Positions 14,951-56,608 of a DNA stretch of 64,000 nucleotides are shown piece by piece. How positions within the stretch are numbered: position 1 is the first letter of the stretch; each line of letters begins with the position of its first letter. The notes under the pieces were generated by a model that saw only the letters and a program-made list of their open reading frames with translations, was not told the DNA's origin and did not search any database. This stretch comes from an uncultured Bacteroidales bacterium. GTDB taxonomy: Bacteria > Bacteroidota > Bacteroidia > Bacteroidales > JAUNSR01. A program made the position numbers and the translations under genes. Location of the stretch: the NCBI GenBank assembly GCA_947074145.1, contig CAMTOJ010000005.1, positions 1 through 64,000 on the forward strand, in the 5' to 3' direction.

Positions 14951-15678
14951 TGATGATGATAAGGACATGTCAGATCAACATCTTTAAGTGTTCCGTCGAT
15001 ATTTATTGTTCGGTTGACCATATCTACAAGTGAGGTGACCTCGTGTGAAACGATTAGAATCGTTGTTGTCTTATTTAAATTTCGCAATATGTCATAAAGA
15101 CGCTCCTCAAAACGCTTATCAATATAGGAGTTCGGTTCATCAAGGATTAGAACCTCCGGACGGTTGATAATTGCTCTTCCTAAAAGGACACGTTGCATCT
15201 GTCCGCCTGATAATGCTTCAATATGATTTTTACTAATATCTTCAAGTCCTATCAAATTAAGAATCTCTTGTACACGCTCCTTATCACCCTTCGAGATTTT
15301 TCTAAGATGAGTGTTTTTATAGAAAAGTCCCGATAAGATTACGTCGAAAACTGTGATTGGGAACTTATTATCAATAGAGTTTCTTTGGGGCAGATAACCT
15401 ATTTTAAGATGATCAACCAACTTATTGTCGCGGTAAAAATTGATTTTCCCATCATAGATAGGGACTAAGCCCAACAATGTTTTCACAAAAGTACTTTTAC
15501 CCCCACCATTAGGACCGATAATGCCCATGAAATCAAGTTTGTTAATATCAAGATTAATGTCATATATCACCTTTCTGTCAGAGTAACCGGCAGAAAGATT
15601 TTCAACTTTAATAATCGTCTCATTAGTGGATGATTTTTTATGATCATAAATCATATCTTCCGCTTTTATCAGTACCAT
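14944..15678 (-). CDS. Zinc/manganese-type ABC transporter ATPase (ZnuC-like) with a His4 tail
   Basis: A 244-residue ATPase with Walker A GPNGGGKST, Q-loop IGYLPQRNSID, signature LSGGQMQR, Walker B VLILDEPNSYID and H-loop VSHEV. The sequence is closest in style to ZnuC/MntB/TroB ATPases. The protein ends CPYHHHH; the His codons are a (CAT)4 repeat. The gene lies 18 bp downstream of the znuA-like gene, supporting zinc uptake. No ZnuB-like permease is adjacent, since the next gene is the convergent dprA. The last 7 bp overlap dprA. Confidence 0.88.
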   Translation of the reverse strand: MVLIKAEDMIYDHKKSSTNETIIKVENLSAGYSDRKVIYDINLDINKLDFMGIIGPNGGGKSTFVKTLLGLVPIYDGKINFYRDNKLVDHLKIGYLPQRNSIDNKFPITVFDVILSGLFYKNTHLRKISKGDKERVQEILNLIGLEDISKNHIEALSGGQMQRVLLGRAIINRPEVLILDEPNSYIDKRFEERLYDILRNLNKTTTILIVSHEVTSLVDMVNRTINIDGTLKDVDLTCPYHHHH

Positions 15679-15696
15679 GATCTCTAATCTTTTTTG

Positions 15697-16623
15697 CTAT
15701 TGATTGTTGTTTTCTGCAATTGCATGAGCCACCTTTATTAATTCATTAGCCCAATCGTCGCTTAGAGGATTGATTTGAACAACTTTAAGATTCAATTCGT
15801 CTGCAATTATCTGTGCGTTTTTCTTGTCAAATTCCTGTTGGATAAACACCACTTTGGCATTGGTTTTACGTACCTCGTCTATAAGTTTTTTCAGAGTAGC
15901 TGCCGAAGGTTCTTTCCCATTGTCCTCAATGGCAAATTGTTTTAGCCCGAACTCTTGTGCGAAATATGTTAGTGAGGGGTGATAGATGACAAATGTCGCT
16001 CCCTTAGAGTTAGCCAGAATTGAAGATATAGAGTCTTTTGTTCCGGTTATCTCATCTTTTAGAAGTTCATAATTGGTAGTATAATATTCCGAATTATCAG
16101 GATCTATTGTCAGAAAAGATTCATACATATTCTGAGCTATCTTCAAGGCATTTGAAGGGGAACTCCAGATATGAGGATCTCCGTCGTGATGGCATGAGTG
16201 ATGACCGTTACAATCCTCACCATGCGAGTGATCGGTATCTTCTGTCATATCGAAAATCTCTTCATCTTCAATAATTCCTATGTTTTTTGAATTGTCGAAT
16301 ATCTTCAATTCCGGATGATTCTGCCGAAGTTTCTCTATCCAATTTATTTCAAAACCAATATTTCCGATCCTGAAATATCCTTTGCTCTTATCAAGAGAGA
16401 CCATAGATGAAGCCGACGGTTCATAAGTTTCCGGACTACTGCCGGCTGGAACCATTGTATTTATTTTAAACTTATCACCGGCAATCTTTTCGGCAAAGAA
16501 TTTCTGTGGAACTATAGTAACGGAAATAATATTTTCCTTTTCAGAATTTGTATTGCATGAAAGCAACAATAAAATAAAGGAAAACAGACAAAAAAGCTTC
16601 AGTGAATTTCTCATATTATACAA
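15697..16623 (-). CDS. ZnuA-like zinc-binding lipoprotein (cluster A-I solute-binding protein)
   Basis: A 308-residue lipoprotein (lipobox LLLSC, acylated Cys23) of the metal-binding cluster A-I family. It has EPSASSMVSL at about 70, a His-rich loop with at least seven histidines (DHSHGEDCNGHHSCHHDGDPH), and metal-ligand regions DPHIW, IYHPSLTYFAQEFG and IQQEFDKKNAQIIADE. The His-rich insert is typical of ZnuA proteins and captures Zn2+ for the transporter. It is second of three genes, 31 bp after a GNAT gene and 18 bp before the ATPase gene. Confidence 0.9.
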   Translation of the reverse strand: MYNMRNSLKLFCLFSFILLLLSCNTNSEKENIISVTIVPQKFFAEKIAGDKFKINTMVPAGSSPETYEPSASSMVSLDKSKGYFRIGNIGFEINWIEKLRQNHPELKIFDNSKNIGIIEDEEIFDMTEDTDHSHGEDCNGHHSCHHDGDPHIWSSPSNALKIAQNMYESFLTIDPDNSEYYTTNYELLKDEITGTKDSISSILANSKGATFVIYHPSLTYFAQEFGLKQFAIEDNGKEPSAATLKKLIDEVRKTNAKVVFIQQEFDKKNAQIIADELNLKVVQINPLSDDWANELIKVAHAIAENNNQ

Positions 16624-44981: not shown

Positions 44982-45557
44982 ATGAAAACACAATTACTTT
45001 TATTTACGCTATTCTTATTATTTATTTTTTCTTCATGTGGATCATCAAAGAAAGGTGCAAAACCTAATTATCATTCGAAAGGTGATATTGAAATTGATGT
45101 CCCATGTACAGGTCCTGAATATCGTACAAACAAAGATTTTTTTAGAGCAAATGCTTCAGGAATTAGCAATAATATGGATGTTGCAAATCAGAAAGCGCAA
45201 ACTTCAGCCCGTGCCAAATTAGCTGCAAATATCGAAAGTAAGATAAAAGCGGTGTCGGATACATATGCTTCTTCATACGAACAGAATACAGCTGAGACGT
45301 ACAGAGGAAAATTCCAATCATTAATAAGAACAGTGGTAAATCAAACATTACAAAATTCAAGTATTATTTGTGAAAAAACCATGAAGGGAACAGATGGACA
45401 ATTTAAGAGCTATGTAGCTGTTGAAGTTTCCAAAGAATCTTTAAATAATAAAATTATTGAGCAGATAAATAACGACTCTAAATTAAGGACAGACTTTGAA
45501 TATGAAAGATTTAAAAAGATCTTCAAAGAGGAGATGTCCAAGCTTGAGAGCGAATAA
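44982..45557 (+). CDS. LPP20-like lipoprotein
   Basis: A 191-residue lipoprotein (signal peptide with lipobox FSSC, Cys19). The body matches the LPP20/FlgP-type pattern: FRANASGISNNMDVANQKAQTSARAKLAANI, a helix typical of the group, and a beta-strand block (SSIICEKTMKGTDGQFKSYVAVEVS). LPP20-family proteins sit in the outer membrane; FlgP is part of a flagellar ring in Vibrio and relatives, but no flagellar genes are in this window. It is the first gene of a nine-gene operon, 8 bp before the transglycosylase. Confidence 0.72.
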   Translation: MKTQLLLFTLFLLFIFSSCGSSKKGAKPNYHSKGDIEIDVPCTGPEYRTNKDFFRANASGISNNMDVANQKAQTSARAKLAANIESKIKAVSDTYASSYEQNTAETYRGKFQSLIRTVVNQTLQNSSIICEKTMKGTDGQFKSYVAVEVSKESLNNKIIEQINNDSKLRTDFEYERFKKIFKEEMSKLESE

Positions 45558-45565
45558 TATTTAAT

Positions 45566-46939
45566 ATGTCACAAAAACTAATTCTTTTATTTTCTCTTTT
45601 TACATCTACGAGTAATATACTTTATTCGCAGACCGGAAGTGTTTTGGATAAAATAGTTACCGAGTATGATCTGAAAATTGAAGGACTTGAAAAAGATTAT
45701 AAAGACTCAATCGATGCAATGACAGAGGATTATAATCGACAGCTTAAACTTTTGCAAGAGCGTCAAGAACTTTTCTTTAGTAATATGTCACAAGAGTGGG
45801 GGGATGCAGAAATAATAGAAGGTGACAACAAGACATGGATTGAGTATGGACAGGAGCAGAATTCACGAAGTGTTGTAAATTTTGAAACCGGAGAAGTAAC
45901 GTTAGAGATTCTTCTTGATGAAACGGAGATTAATTCGGACAACAATATAATAAACACTAAGTTACAGGGAGCTGTTGAAGATCTTTTATCAAGTAGAGGC
46001 AGACCCGAAGGTTCGGGGTTACCTGCCGATTATTATAAAAATGTAAGTACAGGTTTTATACTTGAAAATCAACTTGATTTGGGGAATTTGGGCATTGATC
46101 TTTCAACTGCTTTAGCGCCTGTTGTAAGAGTAAAAGAGCCACCAAAGCCTAAGGTTGGGCAGGGTGCGGTTTTGCCTGAACGGGAAAAACGAACTTCAAC
46201 TTCAACAACAACAAAAGTTGAAGAAAGAGCACTTTCTAAAGAATCATTGGAGGAGATGATAATTACAAATGTTTATTCCTCTCCTCAAATACCTATTATA
46301 GCAGAGTCTATAGTAAAGAAAGATAAACCTATAATATCGAAAGTAAAGAATAATAAAGGTGAAAAGAAAGTTGTAGCTAAAATAACAATTAAGTTAAATG
46401 AGGATCATATATCCAAGCGAGCAGCTGAGTATAGAGATTTGGTGACGTTTTTTTCTAAAAAGTTTGGTATCGCTGAGCCTGTTATTTTTGCCATTATGGA
46501 GCAAGAATCAGCTTTTAATCCTATTGCCAAGTCATGGGTTCCTGCTTACGGACTTATGCAGTTGGTACCAACATCAGGTGGGCGTGATGCTTACAGATTT
46601 GTTTATAAACAAGATAAAATAGTAAAGGGTGAGTATCTGTTTGAGCCTCGCAATAATATAGAACTTGGGACTGCATACCTTCAGGTATTAAAAAGTACAA
46701 GTTTCAAGAATGTGGAAAATTCAGAATGTCAACTTTTATGTATGGTGGCTGCCTATAATTGTGGTGCAGGAAATGTGAGTCGTGCTATGATTGGTAATAC
46801 CAATCTTCCTAAAGCTATACCTCACATCAATTCGATGAATTATAACGAGTTATTTAGTCATTTTAGTAGAAGACTTCCCGATGAGACTAAAAACTATATA
46901 CGAAAAGTAACAGCTAATATCAAAAAATATTCAAAATGA
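45566..46939 (+). CDS. MltC-like lytic transglycosylase
   Basis: A 457-residue secreted murein hydrolase (signal peptide about 1-22, no clear lipobox). The N-terminal part (about 60-180; WGDAEIIEGDNKTWIEYGQE, SRSVVNFETGEVTLE) matches the DUF3393 domain of MltC. The C-terminal SLT domain (about 290-455) has catalytic Glu314 in FAIMEQESAFNP, then AYGLMQLVPTSGG and AAYNCGAGNV. It cleaves glycan chains to 1,6-anhydromuropeptides and could open peptidoglycan for a trans-envelope assembly made of the co-encoded proteins. An Arg/Ser/Thr-rich linker (about 195-230) separates the domains. Confidence 0.9.
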   Translation: MSQKLILLFSLFTSTSNILYSQTGSVLDKIVTEYDLKIEGLEKDYKDSIDAMTEDYNRQLKLLQERQELFFSNMSQEWGDAEIIEGDNKTWIEYGQEQNSRSVVNFETGEVTLEILLDETEINSDNNIINTKLQGAVEDLLSSRGRPEGSGLPADYYKNVSTGFILENQLDLGNLGIDLSTALAPVVRVKEPPKPKVGQGAVLPEREKRTSTSTTTKVEERALSKESLEEMIITNVYSSPQIPIIAESIVKKDKPIISKVKNNKGEKKVVAKITIKLNEDHISKRAAEYRDLVTFFSKKFGIAEPVIFAIMEQESAFNPIAKSWVPAYGLMQLVPTSGGRDAYRFVYKQDKIVKGEYLFEPRNNIELGTAYLQVLKSTSFKNVENSECQLLCMVAAYNCGAGNVSRAMIGNTNLPKAIPHINSMNYNELFSHFSRRLPDETKNYIRKVTANIKKYSK

Positions 46940-46954
46940 TAAATAAATAAAAGC

Positions 46955-48760
46955 ATGAAGTTTTGTTACAACTGTGGATTCAAACTCTCTGATGAAGATT
47001 TGTTCTGTTGTGACTGTGGTGCTGATATGCGAGATGTTGATGTGGACAACAATAGTGACAATCGCGAAAATTTAGATTTAAACACTAATGAATGTGATCA
47101 ACCTATACACAAGGGATTGCTTTCATTAGAGGGTATTCGAGTCTTAAATAATAAAAAATCAATTAAAAAAGATAATGACTATTACAAAAAGGGTGTAATA
47201 GTCACCAATACTGTTTTGCTTTCTAAAAAGCTATCGGTAAATGAAAATGAATTATTAGAGTTAATAGAGCTCTATATAGAATTGCTTGAAACTTTAGGAC
47301 TGAAATATAGACTGGTAAATTTTAGAAATTTCACTCGTTCCAATAAGTGGTATGATTATCATAAGACTCTTCTCGATGTTCCTATGGGTGAACGAAAACG
47401 AGGAGAGCAAGAGAGTGAGTATCTATATATTATAGGTGGTAACGATATTATCCCTGTTCCTGTAATCAATAACTATATTGATAATGGAGATTCCGATATA
47501 GAAACAGATATATTATATGCTTATCCTTATGGTATAGATGTTCAAAGACTTTTAGAGAGCACTGAGATTTATAGATCGGAAATGCTGTTTATGGTCTCCC
47601 GTTTACCATTAGCCTCTGATGCTACTTTTGAAAATCTTTGCGATTTCATGCAACGTACTATTATTAATCACGCACAAGGAGGGGTGATAGTTGAGAGGAT
47701 GTATGGACAATCTGATCCTCACTGGAGTGGAGTATCCAAAAGAGTGGTTGAAGGATTAAATCTTAACGGGCTGGTGGCTCGTTATTCTTCACCCATACCG
47801 GAAGAGATATTTAATGGAAGATTATTCTTAACACCTCCTATAAGTGCCGAGAATATATCACAGGTTTTTGACAAAGATGCCTCCTTTTACTACTTCAATC
47901 TACATGGTGGAAATCAACCCGATTTAAGCTGCTATGTAGGTCAGGTTTATCCTAAGGGAAGTGAATATGTTCCGGGATTTTTTACAGATGCGATCCGCGC
48001 AGCTCAGAACGATAATATTTTCGTGGCAGAATGTTGCTATGGAGCAAAATATGTTGGTTACGACATTGAACATTCGATGCTCAATTCAGCCTTAATGAGT
48101 AGTACTCTTCTGTTTTTAGGTTCATCGAGGATAGCCTATGGATTAGTTGATGGTGAGATGAATCAGATTCGTAGACCTTTAATATCTGCCGATTTAATAT
48201 GTGCGGCTTTTATTGATGGACTACTTTCCGGTTTATCCTCGGGAGAATCATTGACCTATGCCCGATATCTTTTTTTTACAGGTGAAAATAATCCTTATGG
48301 AGGTGCTGAGAGTAATCTGTCGCCTCAGGATGCCCTTACCCTATGTGAGTTTAATTTATATGGCGATCCGATGTTGGGTATGTATGGGGATTATGATAAT
48401 CAGGGAAAGAACCTTGCTGAAGAGTTTAAAATATCTTCTGAAAATTATATAGCTCCTAAAAATATGGAACTTGGAATGACTCTTGAGAAAGTTGTGCCAG
48501 AAAAGGAATCTCTACTTAACAGAGTAAGAGGTGCCGTAGATGCAAATATTAATGCTTTATCAGAGAGAATAGGACGAGATTTGTATACTCAATTCGGATT
48601 AAGTCCGAGAGAGCCTAAGCAAATTATTAAAGTTAAATACAAAAATGGGGATAAAGAATATTGCTTTTTATATGAAGATGATAATAAAGCGGTAAAAACT
48701 CAATATTTCGCAGTTTCTGATCGAAATGGAGAATTAAAATCAGTCGTAACGTCAAAATAG
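46955..48760 (+). CDS. Zinc-ribbon protein with a C25 (gingipain-fold) cysteine-protease domain
   Basis: A 601-residue protein without a signal peptide. An N-terminal zinc ribbon (Cys4, Cys7, Cys18, Cys21) is followed by a domain with the C25 protease layout: YLYIIGGNDIIPVP (about 157), ETDILYAYPYG, MVSRLPLA, catalytic His317 in FNLHGG and catalytic Cys361 in AECCYG, ending with FNLYGDPMLGMYG (about 466). About 110 C-terminal residues are not recognised. Known C25 enzymes are secreted; a cytoplasmic, ribbon-bearing form is unusual and suggests a caspase-like processing role. Proteins encoded by two of the next three genes carry the same kind of zinc ribbon, a possible tethering module. Confidence 0.8.
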   Translation: MKFCYNCGFKLSDEDLFCCDCGADMRDVDVDNNSDNRENLDLNTNECDQPIHKGLLSLEGIRVLNNKKSIKKDNDYYKKGVIVTNTVLLSKKLSVNENELLELIELYIELLETLGLKYRLVNFRNFTRSNKWYDYHKTLLDVPMGERKRGEQESEYLYIIGGNDIIPVPVINNYIDNGDSDIETDILYAYPYGIDVQRLLESTEIYRSEMLFMVSRLPLASDATFENLCDFMQRTIINHAQGGVIVERMYGQSDPHWSGVSKRVVEGLNLNGLVARYSSPIPEEIFNGRLFLTPPISAENISQVFDKDASFYYFNLHGGNQPDLSCYVGQVYPKGSEYVPGFFTDAIRAAQNDNIFVAECCYGAKYVGYDIEHSMLNSALMSSTLLFLGSSRIAYGLVDGEMNQIRRPLISADLICAAFIDGLLSGLSSGESLTYARYLFFTGENNPYGGAESNLSPQDALTLCEFNLYGDPMLGMYGDYDNQGKNLAEEFKISSENYIAPKNMELGMTLEKVVPEKESLLNRVRGAVDANINALSERIGRDLYTQFGLSPREPKQIIKVKYKNGDKEYCFLYEDDNKAVKTQYFAVSDRNGELKSVVTSK

Positions 48761-48768
48761 CATAATTT

Positions 48769-50946
48769 ATGAATTGTACAAATTGTAATAGTCCACTTAA
48801 AGAGGGCGCTAAGTTTTGTACTTCCTGTGGTACTAAGGTGATGGGACAGATACCTATTAGTCATTGTGAAAATTGTAACAGTCCACTCAAGGAGGGTGTA
48901 AAATTTTGTACTAATTGTGGAACAAAAGTTTCAGAATCAACCGGCATAGAGAAGCCTCAAGAAGTGATAAAAATTCAAAATGATATTAAGTCCGAGTCAA
49001 TAAAAGAGGTTGATAATTTCTCTGTAGTAAAACACAAATTGGTGTGGAATATACAGAAAGGAGAGGTTGCAAGAGTGATATCGGAGGAGGAGTTTAGCAA
49101 CTACTCACAAGTTGTAGGTTTAATTGTTAATGAAGGAACTAAGGCTCTGATAAGATTAAACGGGGAGGTGGTTGCTGAAATTAGCAGCGGAGTATATGAT
49201 TTTGTGGATCAAAGTGAATTGGATAAAGAGCTTAAGAAAACAGATGTAATGACACCTATCAAGAGAGGATTCGGCATTATGGTAAATCTGTTTAAAAAGG
49301 CAAAACCAAAGGTTGAATCAGTACCCGGTTTAGATTCATTTATATCAAAACTTCAGAAGGGTAATGTTTTCTCTGTAGTATTGGTTTTAGATGTACCGAT
49401 AACGTTGCTTTTTGGAAAAGAACATTCCGATAATAATGAATTTACCGAATTTGTTCCATTAAAGGTTCAAGCCAAAAATTTAGATCTTGAATTAGGTATT
49501 AGGGCACAATTTAAGATAACTAAGGTTATAGAGTTTGCTAAACAATATTTGCTTTCAAACAATAGTGTAACCACTAATATGATAGTTGCTCAAAGTGCGC
49601 CGATAATTGGAGCAGCAGTACGCAGGATTATAGCGCAATATGATATTGAAGAGAGTATTGTCCCTCAGAACTGTATCGATAGAATCGATGAGCATTTAAA
49701 ATCTCAAAATAGTGAGATATTGGCAGGATTATCATTACTTAAAATAGTTGAAGTTACTGTTGTAAGTGATGATTTGGAGAGATTTAGAGCTCTTAATCAG
49801 GAGCTTTATCTGACTCAGCGAGAAATGGAGTATTTGCAGCGAACTAATGATTTTAAAAACAGGCTTACAGACATAGAGAATCAGCAAATTATATATCAGT
49901 CACGTAGTGATTTAGATCTGAACAAGAGTCTGCAAGAGATAAATAAAGATAAGATTCTAAGTGAAGATGAGCTGGATAAGTTTTATATGTTGCTATCTCG
50001 AGAACGAAAGATAAGAGATGCAAAAAACGAAGATGAGATTGAAGCCGCACTTCATGATATTGAAAAGACAGGTCTTATGCGTGATGAGGATTTGGAACGA
50101 TTAAAATATCAGATAGCAACAGATTCTCATAAAAGAGGTTTCACATTGGAAATGATGCGTTTGAAAGATAGTATCACTTATGAAACGACTTTGAAAAATG
50201 CCGAGATAGAGTTTCAGACCAACTATGTAAGAGCAGAAGTTGAGCAAGCTCGGTTGAGGGATGATTATGATGATGAACGTTATAGAAAACAGGTCGCTCT
50301 TGAAGTTGAAGCACAAAGAGCAGCTCTTGACATAAAACGACAGCAGCAACAACAAGATGAAGATATTGAAGATCGTCGCTCAAAACGTCAGATGGATGAT
50401 TTTATGCGAATGGCAGAGCTTAAGCAAAGTATGCAAAATCAGACAAATGAGCATGAAATCAATATAATGAAAGCAGAACAAGAGGCTAAATTAAAGATGA
50501 GAGAGGCTTCTCAAAATTTCACGGCAGAGCAGATGATGGCAATGGCAGCTAATGAGAATTTAGATGCGGAAGCTGCGAGAGAATTTGCGCGTTCTTTTTC
50601 AGCCGGAAAGGAAGCCGAGGTGCTAAAGGAGAGTGCTGAAAAGATGGATAAATTATCACAGGCAAGAGTTGATGATATGAAAGAGATGATGCGTGCTATG
50701 ATGGACCATAATCAGGCTGTAACAAGTAGTTTGGCTTACAGTAAGGAGGAGAGTAAAAATGAGTATAAGGAGCGTTTGAATATTGAACAACAGAGATTGG
50801 ACAGAACTCAGGATTCAGCCCTTAATTATACGACACGTAATAATATAGGAATGCAACAATCGGCAGGTGGACGTGTTTGCGGCAACTGTAACAATACTAA
50901 TCCTAAAGAAGCCCGTTTTTGCGAACATTGTGGTAATGAAATTTAA
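48769..50946 (+). CDS. SPFH/band 7-like coiled-coil protein with zinc ribbons at both ends
   Basis: A 725-residue protein. Two tandem N-terminal zinc ribbons (Cys3/6/17/20 and Cys33/36/47/50, with a 30-residue period) precede an SPFH-like domain (about 90-330; VVLVLDVPITLLFG, LDLELGIRAQFKI), a very long charged coiled coil (about 330-690; rich in Glu, Arg, Gln, Lys) and a C-terminal ribbon (CGNCNNTNPKEARFCEHCGNE). This resembles YdjI-type SPFH proteins with ribbons. SPFH proteins assemble as large rings at membranes. It probably scaffolds the other ribbon proteins. It lies 8 bp after the protease gene. Confidence 0.78.
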   Translation: MNCTNCNSPLKEGAKFCTSCGTKVMGQIPISHCENCNSPLKEGVKFCTNCGTKVSESTGIEKPQEVIKIQNDIKSESIKEVDNFSVVKHKLVWNIQKGEVARVISEEEFSNYSQVVGLIVNEGTKALIRLNGEVVAEISSGVYDFVDQSELDKELKKTDVMTPIKRGFGIMVNLFKKAKPKVESVPGLDSFISKLQKGNVFSVVLVLDVPITLLFGKEHSDNNEFTEFVPLKVQAKNLDLELGIRAQFKITKVIEFAKQYLLSNNSVTTNMIVAQSAPIIGAAVRRIIAQYDIEESIVPQNCIDRIDEHLKSQNSEILAGLSLLKIVEVTVVSDDLERFRALNQELYLTQREMEYLQRTNDFKNRLTDIENQQIIYQSRSDLDLNKSLQEINKDKILSEDELDKFYMLLSRERKIRDAKNEDEIEAALHDIEKTGLMRDEDLERLKYQIATDSHKRGFTLEMMRLKDSITYETTLKNAEIEFQTNYVRAEVEQARLRDDYDDERYRKQVALEVEAQRAALDIKRQQQQQDEDIEDRRSKRQMDDFMRMAELKQSMQNQTNEHEINIMKAEQEAKLKMREASQNFTAEQMMAMAANENLDAEAAREFARSFSAGKEAEVLKESAEKMDKLSQARVDDMKEMMRAMMDHNQAVTSSLAYSKEESKNEYKERLNIEQQRLDRTQDSALNYTTRNNIGMQQSAGGRVCGNCNNTNPKEARFCEHCGNEI

Positions 50947-50952
50947 TTGATT

Positions 50953-51207
50953 ATGGAAGAGTTTGCAGGTATTTTAAAATATGAGTTTAAGAATGAAAAT
51001 TCAAAGTCGGAAGGCTACTTCCCATACTTGGAATCAATACCAGATGCAATTATATATAAGCTTTATAGAAAGAATATAATGAGTATGAATGACTCTTATT
51101 TTGAGAAATATAATCAAAAAGAAGTGATTATTACCGGTCTGCTAAAGATGGATGAGTGGATTGAAGTATATGATATAAAAGAGATAGATAATAATATAGA
51201 ATTTTAA
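50953..51207 (+). CDS. Small cytoplasmic protein of unknown function
   Basis: 84 residues. The first in-frame codon after the previous stop is a TTG at 50947; the ATG at 50953 is preferred. No ribbon, signal or membrane segment is visible. The pattern ILKYEFKNE, EVIITGLLKM and DEWIEVYDIKEI suggests a small beta-rich fold. The gene lies 6 bp after the SPFH gene and 3 bp before the next one, so it is firmly within the operon; a role as adaptor or inhibitor is possible but unsupported. Confidence 0.6.
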   Translation: MEEFAGILKYEFKNENSKSEGYFPYLESIPDAIIYKLYRKNIMSMNDSYFEKYNQKEVIITGLLKMDEWIEVYDIKEIDNNIEF

Positions 51208-51210
51208 GAT

Positions 51211-53001
51211 ATGAGTAAAGTATTCTGCAAAAATTGCCAAATAGAGCTGTCGGATGATACAAGGTTTTGCCCTGAATGTGGCGGAGCACTTACTCCTATT
51301 TTGGATAACATTATAGCTACGCATTCCCCAGCCAAAGAGGATGACAAGGCGGAAATGATGAAGAATAATAATGTTATGGGTAACGTAGATGTTGCCGGTA
51401 CAAAAATAAATGCGGGAGCCTACAATGCAGATAATTCTGTTGATAATAGCAGTGTTATCACCGATAACAGCAGTGTTGTAAATAGTAGTCAAAATACTGT
51501 TTATAATCAAACAATCATAGATGATACGAAAAAGAGTGTGACCTGTGAGATTTCCGGACGTAAAGTATTAATTATTAATAGTTGCCAGTGTCCGATATGT
51601 CACAGAACTGTCTCTCTTCAATATTACAATGAGGATAAATTATGTTGTCAGTTTTGTGAAAAAGAGGCCGAGAAAAAGTATAGAGATTTTTATGAGTCTA
51701 TGATCTCAGACGGAGGAGTACTTGATTCCTCTGCCAGAGCAGTCTTAAATAATAAAGGAGCAGAGCTTAAAATAAGCAAAGAAAAGAGGGATGAGATAGA
51801 ATTTTTGGTAAAAAAAGAAACAAAAAAACAGCCAACTCAAAATCTTACAGGTTTAAGACGTAAAGAGTTTGACAGGTTGATTCAACTGGTAATCAAGAGT
51901 GAAATATCAGTTGTTGATGCTTCTGATAAATTAATGGCCTTACTTAAAACAACTCAGGATCCGGACGTACAGTATTGGGGCTATCTTTTGATTTCTATGA
52001 CATCTCCTGTTCAGTATATCAAAGATTTAAAAAGTTCTACTATAGATATATATTGGCAGGAATATTGGGCATTTTTGGCTGATTTTAATTCGGGCTCCGC
52101 AGACTCCGGAACAAGTACTTTGGAGAGCCTTAAGGAAAAATATATTGATAAAAGCAGTGATACCTCTTTGGCAGAGGTAGTATTGCTTTTGAAGTTATTC
52201 AATAAAACCGATGATAAAAGTTATTATAATGATGCAATAAACAGTTTGAAACTGATTATAGAGGTGGAAACGCCTCAGTTAGTCTCGCTTTACAAATCAT
52301 TATGTATTGAATTAGGTTTAAGCTCTGATGCAAACGTACCAAATGAATTAAATTTCTATGTGGATAAACTTGTTGAGCTGAAGAGAATAAAAGTATCAAA
52401 TAAAAATAATTCTCAAATAATATCAGCTCCTTTATCTAACCAACAGGTTTCGTCAACCGTTAATCAGAATAAAGTAATTGAAAAAGGTTTTGTATTGAAT
52501 GATACTGCCGGAGCTCCGCTTAAGGTGACTCAGCCAAAAAAATCATCTTCAAAAGTTATCACTTTTGGATTGTGTGGCGTGGCAATTCTGGCTATTGTAG
52601 TTTTTCTGTTTGTCGGTTCGGGAAAAGATGAGAAAACGACGGTTCCGGATGAGGCGAAAGAGATGATAGTTGAAAAAATTGAAGAAAAACCGAAAGTAAA
52701 ACAAGAGGCTAAAGCAGTTGCCGCTGCAACAACTGCTTCGAAACCAACAATGGCGTCAAAGTCCATGACGCCGAAAGAGAATCCGAATGCTGAAAAAGCG
52801 AACGCTTTATTAAAAGACGCAGAAGCAGAATATAAGGCTGAAAACTATACAAAAGCTATTGATCTGTTTAAGAAAGCAGCGAATTTAAAATCAAAAGAAG
52901 CATGCTTAAGGCTATCTGAGATATATACTACGGGTGTAGGTTCTATATCCGCAAATTCTCTTCAAGCTAAATCATGGAAAGACAAAGCTGATAAATTGTA
53001 A
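51211..53001 (+). CDS. Zinc-ribbon protein with one membrane segment and C-terminal TPR/Sel1-like repeat
   Basis: A 596-residue protein. It has an N-terminal ribbon (Cys6, Cys9, Cys20, Cys23), an Asn/Ser/Asp/Val-rich stretch (about 70-100) reminiscent of solvent-exposed repeats, a second cysteine cluster (CQCPIC and CCQFC, about 125-150), a largely helical middle, one membrane segment (about 449-470), an Ala/Lys-rich linker, and a TPR/Sel1-like C-terminus (YKAENYTKAIDLFKKAANL) with a YTTGVG motif. The orientation would put the ribbons in the cytoplasm and the TPR in the periplasm. It may join the cytoplasmic SPFH/protease complex to the envelope components. Confidence 0.75.
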   Translation: MSKVFCKNCQIELSDDTRFCPECGGALTPILDNIIATHSPAKEDDKAEMMKNNNVMGNVDVAGTKINAGAYNADNSVDNSSVITDNSSVVNSSQNTVYNQTIIDDTKKSVTCEISGRKVLIINSCQCPICHRTVSLQYYNEDKLCCQFCEKEAEKKYRDFYESMISDGGVLDSSARAVLNNKGAELKISKEKRDEIEFLVKKETKKQPTQNLTGLRRKEFDRLIQLVIKSEISVVDASDKLMALLKTTQDPDVQYWGYLLISMTSPVQYIKDLKSSTIDIYWQEYWAFLADFNSGSADSGTSTLESLKEKYIDKSSDTSLAEVVLLLKLFNKTDDKSYYNDAINSLKLIIEVETPQLVSLYKSLCIELGLSSDANVPNELNFYVDKLVELKRIKVSNKNNSQIISAPLSNQQVSSTVNQNKVIEKGFVLNDTAGAPLKVTQPKKSSSKVITFGLCGVAILAIVVFLFVGSGKDEKTTVPDEAKEMIVEKIEEKPKVKQEAKAVAAATTASKPTMASKSMTPKENPNAEKANALLKDAEAEYKAENYTKAIDLFKKAANLKSKEACLRLSEIYTTGVGSISANSLQAKSWKDKADKL

Positions 53002-53051
53002 AATGAATTTAAATTATGAAATATATGTTTTAAGAATTAATTAAAAAAATC

Positions 53052-53912
53052 ATGAAAAAATATCTGTTATTAATTATTGCTGTAATAACCTTTTTTACCT
53101 CTTATGGACAAGGTAAGCAAAGAATGCTTGTTGAATATTTTACTTCATCAAGTTCAAAAGATCGAGCCTATATTGATCTGGTTAGAAATCAGATAATTTC
53201 GGGAACGAATAAAATTAATCGACATATTTTAATCGATGTCGATAGCGAGTCTTCATTAAAAATAGAAGAAAATAGACGCGCTAAGGAGTCCGCAATGGGA
53301 GATAAAGAAATGCGTCTCGGTGCAATAAAAACGTTAGGAGCAAACAGTATTATGACTGGTAATATTGATGGCTTTACATTAGAAAAAGTTACTCCAAAAG
53401 AGGGTGATCCATATTACAAAACTGTTCTTACGGTTACTGTTAAGTTTTTAAAAGTAGAGGATGGAAGTCTTCATGCATCAGAAACAATTACTACTTATGG
53501 AGGAGGTTCACTTACCGGAAAAACAAAAGAAGCTGCATATACAAGTGCTATAAATGTAATAGCCGATAAGATGGATGATATTATAAACATATATTTCCCG
53601 ATAAAAGGGAAAATTGTTGAGCTAAAAGAACAAAAGAAGAATAAGTTGATTAGTTGTTATGCCGACTTTGGATCTGATCATGGTGTTTCCAAAGGTCAGT
53701 ATATTAAAGTATTTCAAATCAAGCATATTGCAGGAAGAGAAACCAAGCAAGAGATAGGTCGTATGAAAATTGAAGCGGTGGTAGCAGGTGATCTTTCAGA
53801 ATGTAAGGTAACGAAGGGAGGGGATAAGATTTTAAAAGGATTTAATGATGGACAAGAGTTCATTTTAGAAACAGATAAGGATAGAAGTTTTATAGGAGCC
53901 TTAGGCTTATAA
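53052..53912 (+). CDS. Secreted CsgG/FlgT-like protein
   Basis: A 286-residue protein with a signal peptide (MKKYLLLIIAVITFFTSYGQ). Residues about 22-170 look CsgG-like (GAIKTLGANSIMTGNID, TVTVKFLKVEDGSL), and about 180-286 resembles the FlgT C-terminal domain (KGKIVELKEQKKNKLISCYADFG; VSKGQYIKVFQ). Such proteins form outer-membrane-associated rings or secretion channels. No flagellar genes are in the window. It lies 50 bp after the ribbon/TPR gene. Confidence 0.65.
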   Translation: MKKYLLLIIAVITFFTSYGQGKQRMLVEYFTSSSSKDRAYIDLVRNQIISGTNKINRHILIDVDSESSLKIEENRRAKESAMGDKEMRLGAIKTLGANSIMTGNIDGFTLEKVTPKEGDPYYKTVLTVTVKFLKVEDGSLHASETITTYGGGSLTGKTKEAAYTSAINVIADKMDDIINIYFPIKGKIVELKEQKKNKLISCYADFGSDHGVSKGQYIKVFQIKHIAGRETKQEIGRMKIEAVVAGDLSECKVTKGGDKILKGFNDGQEFILETDKDRSFIGALGL

Positions 53913-53927
53913 TATTTAATATTTAAT

Positions 53928-55196
53928 ATGAATAAATTATATAGATATATATTTCTTTTTATTGTAGTTGTTTTTTGTGCAGATATTTCAGCACAAGAAT
54001 ATGCTAATATTGTCCAATTAGAGGATGCTAATGATAAGACTGCAACATTTATAACTATTGGAACCGGAAATAAAAAGACAGATGCCGAGATTAATGCACT
54101 CGGATCGTTATTTAACACTCTTTTTTTTATAGGTGTTGAAGGAATTAATGATGGTAATCCAATGGTTACGAACAATAAACCGGACTATATTAAAAGTTTT
54201 ATGGCCAATAAAACAACAATTTATGGTTCGAACAGATCAGTCATTGGTAAAATAGAAAAGAATATACAAAAGAAGTATGAGGCTAAACTAAGAGTAACGG
54301 TACCTATGTCTTCTTTATCAAAGGAATTGGCACAAAATGGATTATCAGAGTCGTTAAAGAAAGGTGAAATTGAAAATGTTGATGATATGAACAGTATTGT
54401 ACTCCCATCTATTATGGTGGTTCCTTATAAGAAAGATGGAGAAAGTTATGATGCTATTCTTCAAAATGACTATGATCGACGAGTAGCGGTGGGTAAGTTA
54501 CAAGCCGGCTTTGAAGGACGTAATATCACAACAGTTGATATTTCTGCTAAAATTGCAGCAATCAAGCGAAGATCTGAGTATGAAGCATCAACAGCTGATT
54601 CTAATGATAAACAACTTCTTTTGACATCAGGTGCCGATGTGTATGTCGTGGTAGATTTGAAAAAGGATATTCAACCTTCAGGTTCAAGAGTATCACTTAT
54701 AATGAAGGCTTATGAGACCTCCTCCGGGTCTATACTGGCAAGTCAGGATGGATTTACAAGGAAGTTTAATACCTCTGCAGTCGATATGCTTTGTTCGTAT
54801 GCTGTAGAAGATAATGTTGGTCCTTTTCTTGATGAAATAGTTAAGAATCTTAATAAACAAGTTACAGATTCTAAGAGAATTGTACTTCAAATATCTATTG
54901 CCGGGTCATCGATGATGAGTATGAGTAGTCAGGTAGGTCCTAATAACTATCGCCTTTCAGATGTAATCAGACAATGGGTTCGCAGTAACTCTGATAAAGG
55001 AAAATATCATCTGCAAGGAGTCGTTGAGGAGAGTATGATATTTGATTATGTTATGATACCTCTGAAAGACTCAGATGGTCTTATGATGGATGCTGCTCAG
55101 TATGGGTTCTTACTACAGTATTTTTTAAGTGAGAAGCAGAATGTATCGTGTAGCAACAAGATAGACGGGAATACTGTTTATATAACTATTGAATAA
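53928..55196 (+). CDS. Secreted protein, DUF6175-like
   Basis: A 422-residue protein with a signal peptide (cleavage near ISA-Q). I assign it tentatively to DUF6175-type Bacteroidota proteins. The first half has a helix-strand pattern (KKTDAEINALGSLFNTLFF; EAKLRVTVPMSSLSKEL) similar to LPP20/FlgO-like repeats; the second half has YDAILQNDYDRRVAVGKLQ and VYVVVDLKKDIQPSGSRVS, a CsgG-like curvature. It lies 15 bp after the CsgG/FlgT-like gene, strongly suggesting a shared envelope structure. Confidence 0.6.
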   Translation: MNKLYRYIFLFIVVVFCADISAQEYANIVQLEDANDKTATFITIGTGNKKTDAEINALGSLFNTLFFIGVEGINDGNPMVTNNKPDYIKSFMANKTTIYGSNRSVIGKIEKNIQKKYEAKLRVTVPMSSLSKELAQNGLSESLKKGEIENVDDMNSIVLPSIMVVPYKKDGESYDAILQNDYDRRVAVGKLQAGFEGRNITTVDISAKIAAIKRRSEYEASTADSNDKQLLLTSGADVYVVVDLKKDIQPSGSRVSLIMKAYETSSGSILASQDGFTRKFNTSAVDMLCSYAVEDNVGPFLDEIVKNLNKQVTDSKRIVLQISIAGSSMMSMSSQVGPNNYRLSDVIRQWVRSNSDKGKYHLQGVVEESMIFDYVMIPLKDSDGLMMDAAQYGFLLQYFLSEKQNVSCSNKIDGNTVYITIE

Positions 55197-55270
55197 TAAA
55201 AATCAATTCTGATTTGAGAGAAATTGATACGTTAATCTATCTCATAATTAGAGTTATAAATTGTAGAGAT

Positions 55271-56608
55271 ATGAAGAGATTATTATTTTTCGTTTTAAGC
55301 TGCTTGTGTATTATTTCTACATTATCAGCTCAAGTTATTCCTTTATGGTTAAAGGAAAGACCTATGTCTATAAGTCAATATATAGGTATTGGAAGTGTGC
55401 CTTTAACGGTCTCGAATTTTCGTGAAGCGGCAAGGTTGGCAGCAACCAATGAAATTGCATCTCAGATAAGTGTGACAGTTGAGTCTAATTCATTTCTTAA
55501 GACAGTAGATCTTGATGGTGATGCAAAGCAGGTATATGAACAAAAAATAAAAGAATCTCTTTCCGGTTTTCTTGCAGAATGTGAGATAGTGGATACTTAT
55601 CAATCGGCGGATGAGTTTTTTGTCTTTTGTAAATTAGACAAAGATGCTTACCAGGCGTATATATCAGAAAAGAGAAAGAAGGCAGTACAGCAAGGACTGG
55701 ATTTTTTTGTCAAAGGGAAAGATGCGGAGGCTAATGGTGAAATATCTGTGGCTTTATCACTATATGGTAAAGGGATGGAGAGTGTAGAGCCTTATCTTAG
55801 TCTTAATCTTGACGGAATGTATAGTGGCAGATATGTGAATGTTGCATCGGAACTATTCACCGCTGCGACAAGTTTATTTTCAGGAATGGCGATAACATCA
55901 AATGTTTCAAATCTATCTGTTCAGGGATTGAAAACTGTGCGTGAGCCTTTAGCTGTATGTTTAAGTAAAAACGGGGTAGTTCTTCCAAATGTATTGATGT
56001 GTGCGGATTTTTCATCGGGAGCAGGAGATGTTACACCTTCGGTAAAGACAGATCACACGGGAACTGCTACTTTTTATGTTACTAATGTTACGGCTAAAGA
56101 TGATATTCAAACTATAAATGTTAGTATCGATAAATCTTTTATTAATCAATTTCCGGCGATATACAGATCTTTAGTATCAACATCTCAATTACCATGTTTA
56201 AATATCACTTTAGCAGTAACTAATGCTATTACTACTGCATATTTTGATATTGGAACTAATGATATACCTGAATGTGAACGCTTGGTCAGAGGAATATTTG
56301 TCAATAATTATTTTGAAGTAGTAGAAGATTCTAATGCCGATCTGTATATAGCTTATTCAACCGAACTAAAGGTTGGTAATGAGATTGATGGAGAAATGTA
56401 TAAACTTAACGAGTGTTTTTGTACTCTCAATATTAAGATATATAACAATAAAACTCAAGGTCTTTTATCCGAATATTCAGTTCCTAATTTAAGAATATTG
56501 GTTCCGGTAAATAAGTCTTCAGAACAGGTTTCTTCAATGTGTGCAAGAGAATTAATGAAGCAATTTAATAATCGATTACCTTTAGTTTTGAAGAACTTGA
56601 AGTTGTAA
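55271..56608 (+). CDS. Secreted LPP20-like protein, last gene of the operon
   Basis: A 445-residue protein with a signal peptide (MKRLLFFVLSCLCIISTLSA). The N-terminal part matches LPP20-type proteins: YIGIGSVPLTVSNFREAARLAATNEIASQISVTVE, then ESLSGFLAECEIVDTYQS. The C-terminal region is beta-rich with a TGTATFYVTNVTAKDDIQ strand pair. The frame is open to 55214, but the ATG at 55271 directly starts the signal peptide and is chosen. It is the second LPP20-like protein in the operon and the ninth gene. A strong terminator follows. Confidence 0.68.
   Translation: MKRLLFFVLSCLCIISTLSAQVIPLWLKERPMSISQYIGIGSVPLTVSNFREAARLAATNEIASQISVTVESNSFLKTVDLDGDAKQVYEQKIKESLSGFLAECEIVDTYQSADEFFVFCKLDKDAYQAYISEKRKKAVQQGLDFFVKGKDAEANGEISVALSLYGKGMESVEPYLSLNLDGMYSGRYVNVASELFTAATSLFSGMAITSNVSNLSVQGLKTVREPLAVCLSKNGVVLPNVLMCADFSSGAGDVTPSVKTDHTGTATFYVTNVTAKDDIQTINVSIDKSFINQFPAIYRSLVSTSQLPCLNITLAVTNAITTAYFDIGTNDIPECERLVRGIFVNNYFEVVEDSNADLYIAYSTELKVGNEIDGEMYKLNECFCTLNIKIYNNKTQGLLSEYSVPNLRILVPVNKSSEQVSSMCARELMKQFNNRLPLVLKNLKL

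Follow-up and report, generated by a model that had tools for sequence, protein, structure and literature searches.

A Bacteroidales operon encoding a ribboned SPFH-fold protein, a C25 protease and outer-membrane-type proteins: a possible envelope-sensing system

Closest described systems

In Bacillus subtilis, the pspA-ydjGHI operon combines a soluble SPFH protein with a C-terminal zinc ribbon (YdjI) and a ribboned membrane protein (YdjG); zinc ribbons have been described for both YdjG and the band-7 protein (PMC11237479). Without YdjG/YdjH, both YdjI and PspA lose their membrane localization, and under alkaline stress peptidoglycan synthesis becomes delocalized (PMC8581546). A precedent for an operon pairing an SPFH gene with a protease gene is provided by stomatin-STOPP (PH1511/PH1510; PMC3795559). 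Here, we describe a nine-gene operon (genes A to I) from an uncultured Bacteroidales bacterium, which occupies positions 44982 to 56608 of the window, i.e., the 64,000 nucleotides analyzed at the start of contig CAMTOJ010000005.1 (assembly GCA_947074145.1). We tentatively propose, largely by analogy, that it encodes an SPFH-scaffolded complex that senses the envelope and controls a caspase-fold protease in the cytoplasm.

For the cytoplasmic half of this operon, PspA-YdjGHI appears to be the closest tested analogy: both systems encode a soluble ribboned SPFH protein and a ribboned membrane protein in one operon, and both show a tie to peptidoglycan synthesis. However, the SPFH-fold protein D fails the Band_7_1 profile, and the operon adds a C25 protease, a transglycosylase, and outer-membrane-type proteins. 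Moreover, neither PspA nor the TPM-domain protein YdjH is encoded among the nine genes (PspA was not searched for elsewhere in the genome), and on this ground we rejected membership in the PspA-YdjGHI system. Membership in the stomatin-STOPP class was likewise rejected because the protease class differs: STOPP/NfeD is a membrane-bound Ser-Lys protease, whereas C is a soluble, ribboned C25 enzyme of the Cys/His type with no transmembrane (TM) segment.

Other parallels are suggested by the envelope half. FlgT, PelC, and CsgG form rings associated with the outer membrane, and FlgT has been described in this capacity in the flagellum (PMC12222027). Like the FlgO/FlgP/FlgT rings of Vibrio and the FlgP rings of Campylobacter, the operon includes an LPP20 domain (in I) and a protein whose low-confidence model best matches FlgT of the LPHT ring (H), but the sequence similarity is negligible and the cassette has no flagellar gene. 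H and G also appear to fall in the fold neighborhood of the outer-membrane lipoproteins GNA1162, PelC, CsgG, and LpoB; unlike these, they have ordinary signal peptides with no lipobox, and they are not accompanied by curli or Pel genes. Since the operon contains none of the respective genes, membership in a flagellar, curli, or Pel system was rejected. Finally, B shares the Mltc_N plus SLT architecture of Escherichia coli MltC but carries an ordinary signal peptide where MltC has a lipid anchor, and its score does not reach the MltC equivalog cutoff.

A conserved cassette of nine genes

The nine open reading frames all lie on the forward strand, separated by gaps of 3 to 74 bp when E and I are started at the ATG codons at 50953 and 55271, which are the most likely starts because the homologues begin there. 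An earlier note, made from the sequence alone, had read this stretch as a single operon with three ribboned proteins and five exported ones, and each of these points was upheld. Zinc ribbons are found at the N termini of C, D, and F, with D bearing two at its N terminus and a third at its C terminus, and export signals are seen in A (a lipobox) and in B, G, H, and I (signal peptides).

Eight named loci were recovered when 84,980 species genomes were scanned. In other Bacteroidales families, the order B-C-D-(E)-F-G-H-I is retained at roughly 25 to 50% protein identity. An isolate of Mediterranea massiliensis (L046) has the complete set, arranged B-C-D-E-F-G-H-I-A, and genome G506 (L006/L047) has B-C-D-F-G-H-I-A, the same order with every protein homologous. 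The other loci come from an uncultured Mediterranea, RUG454 (in which G lies at 15208 to 16029), and two metagenome-assembled genomes, one from Bacteroidaceae whose contig ends after F and one from Paludibacteraceae whose contig ends inside H; the remaining two, L050 (Muribaculaceae) and L051 (Paludibacteraceae), have the cytoplasmic variant only. Beside C, B could not be recognized in either L049 or RUG454, and L048 has no recognizable A gene. Thus, the gene-neighborhood conservation that the earlier note had asked for is found, and because eight homologous genes occur in conserved order in other Bacteroidales families, the cassette is, judging from these comparisons, a real evolving unit rather than a chance juxtaposition.

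The copy in the window is the most divergent one for most genes. Its A gene comes first, at the 5' end, whereas L046, L047, and L052 have theirs at the 3' end. The distances among the A proteins do not track those of C, D, and F, and A may have been reacquired or moved.

The cassette, an eight- or nine-gene block shared by gut bacteria that are only distant relatives, is also rare. Among 246 Bacteroidales genomes, the profile of C found a single further carrier; it had no match in four congeners, two of which are only 71 to 77% complete. In one congener (G003), the genes of the left flank are 77 to 78% identical to those in the window but adjoin unrelated genes. This flank without the cassette, together with the patchy occurrence, indicates that the cassette is an accessory locus.

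Cytoplasmic and inner-membrane proteins

The protein C (46955 to 48760) combines an N-terminal zinc ribbon with a cysteine protease domain of the gingipain/caspase clan and lacks a signal peptide. It matches the Pfam profile Peptidase_C25 above the cutoff (E = 3e-6; 27.1 bits versus 23), and its catalytic dyad, His317 and Cys361, is invariant in all nine homologues; hence, on sequence criteria it is a C25 peptidase with predicted cysteine protease activity.

The protein D (48769 to 50946) displays two zinc ribbons, an SPFH domain, a long coiled coil, and a terminal ribbon. None of the nine members of its family matches the Pfam SPFH profile. Further, PF13421 (Band_7_1, the YdjI family) has no match anywhere in the genome, on which basis we rejected D as a member of the YdjI family. 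When its AlphaFold2 model (mean predicted local distance difference test score [pLDDT], 68) was compared with PDB structures, SPFH-family and vault proteins filled the first 13 places, among them HflK/C (the best, with E = 7.5e-5), flotillin, prohibitin, stomatin, and vault, and the TM-score against the stomatin SPFH domain is 0.65 to 0.67 by target length. The predicted fold thus confirms an SPFH domain followed by a coiled coil, as the earlier note had held, even though the sequence profiles miss it. D has no TM segment and would therefore need a membrane anchor.

The most plausible source of such an anchor within the operon is F (51211 to 53001), whose architecture of an N-terminal ribbon, an Asn/Ser-rich segment, a single TM segment, a disordered linker, and a Sel1/TPR-like tail is largely shared across the cassettes, the ribbon, Asn/Ser-rich segment, TM segment, and tail being present in seven of seven. 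The TM segment lies at about residues 449 to 468, and the flanking charges predict an N-in/C-out orientation in most homologues. In line with the earlier claim of a single link across the inner membrane, F is likely to be the only such link in the operon, and we consider it the candidate for this role. In F and its homologues, the Asn/Ser/His-rich segment between the ribbon and the TM segment (residues ~50 to 115) has a conserved pattern, DNSxxVNNT...NNTTxxI. The idea that the TM segment of F is present only with the envelope module was rejected because L050, too, encodes an F-like protein with a likely, if shorter, TM segment. Between D and F lies E (50953 to 51207), a conserved protein of 84 amino acids with no family assignment, possibly a small beta-barrel, which is found in six of the seven joined cassettes and missing from L047.

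Envelope proteins

A (44982 to 45557) is a small outer-membrane-type lipoprotein with the lipobox SSC. Of the two LPP20-like proteins that had been proposed, I (55271 to 56608) is clear: it is an exported protein with an LPP20 domain (Pfam E = 7.5e-10; 39.6 bits versus a gathering score of 25.9), an Ig-like middle, and a conserved C-terminal domain. A is weakly LPP20-like at best; it does not attain the gathering score, one member of its family matches the profile at E = 0.09, and a profile comparison of A against I gives a weak similarity.

B (45566 to 46939) is an MltC-like lytic transglycosylase, as anticipated. Both Pfam domains, SLT at E = 2.4e-22 and Mltc_N at E = 2.9e-8, score above their cutoffs. 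MltC structures are matched by the profile of its family at E values down to 2.6e-57, and its catalytic motif EQES (Glu314) is invariant. Its score against the NCBIfam MltC equivalog is 174.9 bits, compared with a cutoff of 375.

The CsgG/FlgT-like fold that the earlier note had expected appears to be present in the operon, but its principal bearer is probably H rather than G. G (53052 to 53912) is an exported LpoB/CsgG-like protein; the version in the window falls below the Pfam gathering scores for CsgG and LpoB, and five of the six members of its family are LpoB-like (best E = 9e-8), with weak matches to CsgG and FlgT in one member each. H (53928 to 55196) is an exported, long-form DUF6175 protein (Pfam E = 7e-57). 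In a Foldseek search with its low-confidence model (mean pLDDT, 60), the LPHT ring entry ranks first (E = 5e-7) and FlgT, the H-ring protein, comes next (E = 2e-6), both with TM-scores below 0.3; PelC, GNA1162, and CsgG follow. Within its limits, this model points to H as the most FlgT-like protein of the operon and makes DUF6175 a candidate for a FlgT/PelC/GNA1162-type fold. Pairs of the H-I type are also seen outside the cassette.

A possible envelope-sensing, protease-controlling complex

What the analysis shows is the gene content, the conserved order, the folds recognized from sequence or models, the catalytic dyad, the predicted topology, and the separability of the two halves. As an explanation, we tentatively favor the sensing complex outlined above. 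In it, A, G, H, and I would form a periplasmic or outer-membrane scaffold, probably ring-like, and B would open or trim peptidoglycan for the passage or anchoring of the scaffold or of the F tail. F, whose predicted orientation places the ribbon on the cytoplasmic side and the long disordered linker and Sel1 tail on the periplasmic side, might read the state of the scaffold and anchor the soluble SPFH cage D at the cytoplasmic face, as YdjG/YdjH do for YdjI. The ribbon-bearing C could be held on or in this cage and, upon damage or remodeling outside, be freed or activated by a relay through F. A more specific version, in which a signal passes from an outer-membrane/peptidoglycan ring of the FlgT/LPP20/LpoB folds via the single-pass linker to an SPFH cage holding the caspase-fold protease, so that the envelope would trigger proteolysis inside the cell, is conceivable but rather doubtful.

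Several features are consistent with such a complex. Every compartment is represented, with exactly one predicted inner-membrane protein, which in every joined cassette has both the TM segment and the C-terminal tail; the gene order persists in distantly related Bacteroidales; and the SPFH, F-like, and C25 genes recur as a cluster without B, G, H, and I. C has an invariant dyad, H resembles the ring-forming FlgT, PelC, and CsgG, B is MltC-like, and G is LpoB-like. Further, the distances of C, D, and F covary among themselves (r = 0.76 to 0.94, from few taxa and with no correction for kinship).

Other observations weigh against it, and they also bear on the strongest alternative, namely, that two functionally separate modules share one promoter, with the SPFH/ribbon/C25 genes maintaining the membrane and the DUF6175/LpoB/LPP20 genes maintaining the outer membrane and peptidoglycan. 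The same C/D/F distances correlate less with those of G, H, and I (r = 0.30 to 0.72), weakening the view of a single machine. The halves also occur apart, so that any coupling may be loose. In L050 and L051, the SPFH, F-like, and C25 genes are present but B, G, H, and I are not (in L051, the contig stops soon after the cluster). DUF6175, present in 19 of 395 genomes of the phylum, lies in some cases as a short form beside genes for CsgG/LpoB-like proteins and small lipoproteins (e.g., L035 and L037) and in others as a long form beside an LPP20/Ig protein like I (L040 and L043), with neither C nor D in any of the 13 DUF6175 neighborhoods examined. Ribbons are altered in the L050 and L051 homologues, the C25 protein of L050 being ribbon-less with a separate zinc-ribbon protein encoded just upstream; hence, ribbon docking is not universal. 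The modest pLDDT of the D model and the low confidence of the H model, with its low whole-chain TM-scores, add to these points. Against two separate modules, the window and several other loci, with two more cut by contig ends, have both halves together in one shared order at the low identities given above, and the periplasmic tail of F, which is predicted to span the membrane, is conserved. We regard two independent modules as unlikely, though as the likeliest of the alternatives.

The cytoplasmic-only relatives span L050:3560-11389 and L051:6900-15608 and have different N-terminal domains. Across Bacteroidota, DUF6175 forms small envelope clusters of its own, also seen in L032, L033, L036, L038, L039, L041, L042, and L044.

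It is improbable that the operon is an anti-phage or suicide system, in which the SPFH protein and F would sense envelope damage and the caspase-fold protease would kill the cell or cleave phage or host factors. Its rare, patchy, accessory distribution would fit this, as would the role of caspase-like peptidases as effectors of predicted bacterial conflict systems, some of which also employ zinc ribbons (PMC7159879). However, PADLOC returned no match among the cassette proteins and the flanking genes tested, leading us to reject membership in a known defense system; the flanks are mostly ordinary metabolic, transport, and regulatory genes; and a transglycosylase and outer-membrane-type proteins are atypical of defense systems. 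The cassette was not found on viral contigs or plasmids, and carriage by phages or plasmids was rejected, the plasmid C25 matches (Rhizobium and Novosphingobium) being core-domain relatives in unrelated contexts where annotated. Another reading is an apparatus for secretion or surface assembly, in which G, H, and I would build an outer-membrane export ring like those of CsgG and PelC, B would clear peptidoglycan, and C would process the substrate being exported. It would accord with the matches of H to PelC (exopolysaccharide export) and CsgG (curli export) but has similarly little probability: the operon is predicted to encode neither an inner-membrane transporter nor an ATPase nor an outer-membrane beta-barrel, it offers no obvious substrate, and C and D are predicted to be cytoplasmic.

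If the parts of the sensing complex do work together, they would give a Gram-negative cell a novel means of linking the condition of the outer membrane and wall to an intracellular caspase-fold protease, and they would add a new class of partners for SPFH scaffolds. The analysis also proposes a fold for DUF6175 and reveals a divergent SPFH family. Our literature searches, whose coverage was mostly without subscription journals, found no paper on this gene combination, which the earlier note too had not recognized, and none describing DUF6175. The cultured carrier, Mediterranea massiliensis, makes the system testable.

Genomic setting

The G+C fraction of the cassette (0.348) equals that of the rest of the window (0.342), and composition thus lends no support to horizontal acquisition. 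A scan for sigma-70 consensus promoters gave no excess of matches over shuffled sequences. The operon is flanked on the left by a divergent pair of glycosyltransferase/LPG-synthase-like genes and on the right by an oppositely oriented gene for a Y_Y_Y-domain protein. In Mediterranea massiliensis, the cassette has a gene for a DDE transposase immediately upstream (L046:2714-3928). A gene named purL-like by resemblance adjoins the cassette in L047 (upstream) and in L048 (3987-7739), in opposite relative orientations, which might reflect a shared location or chance.
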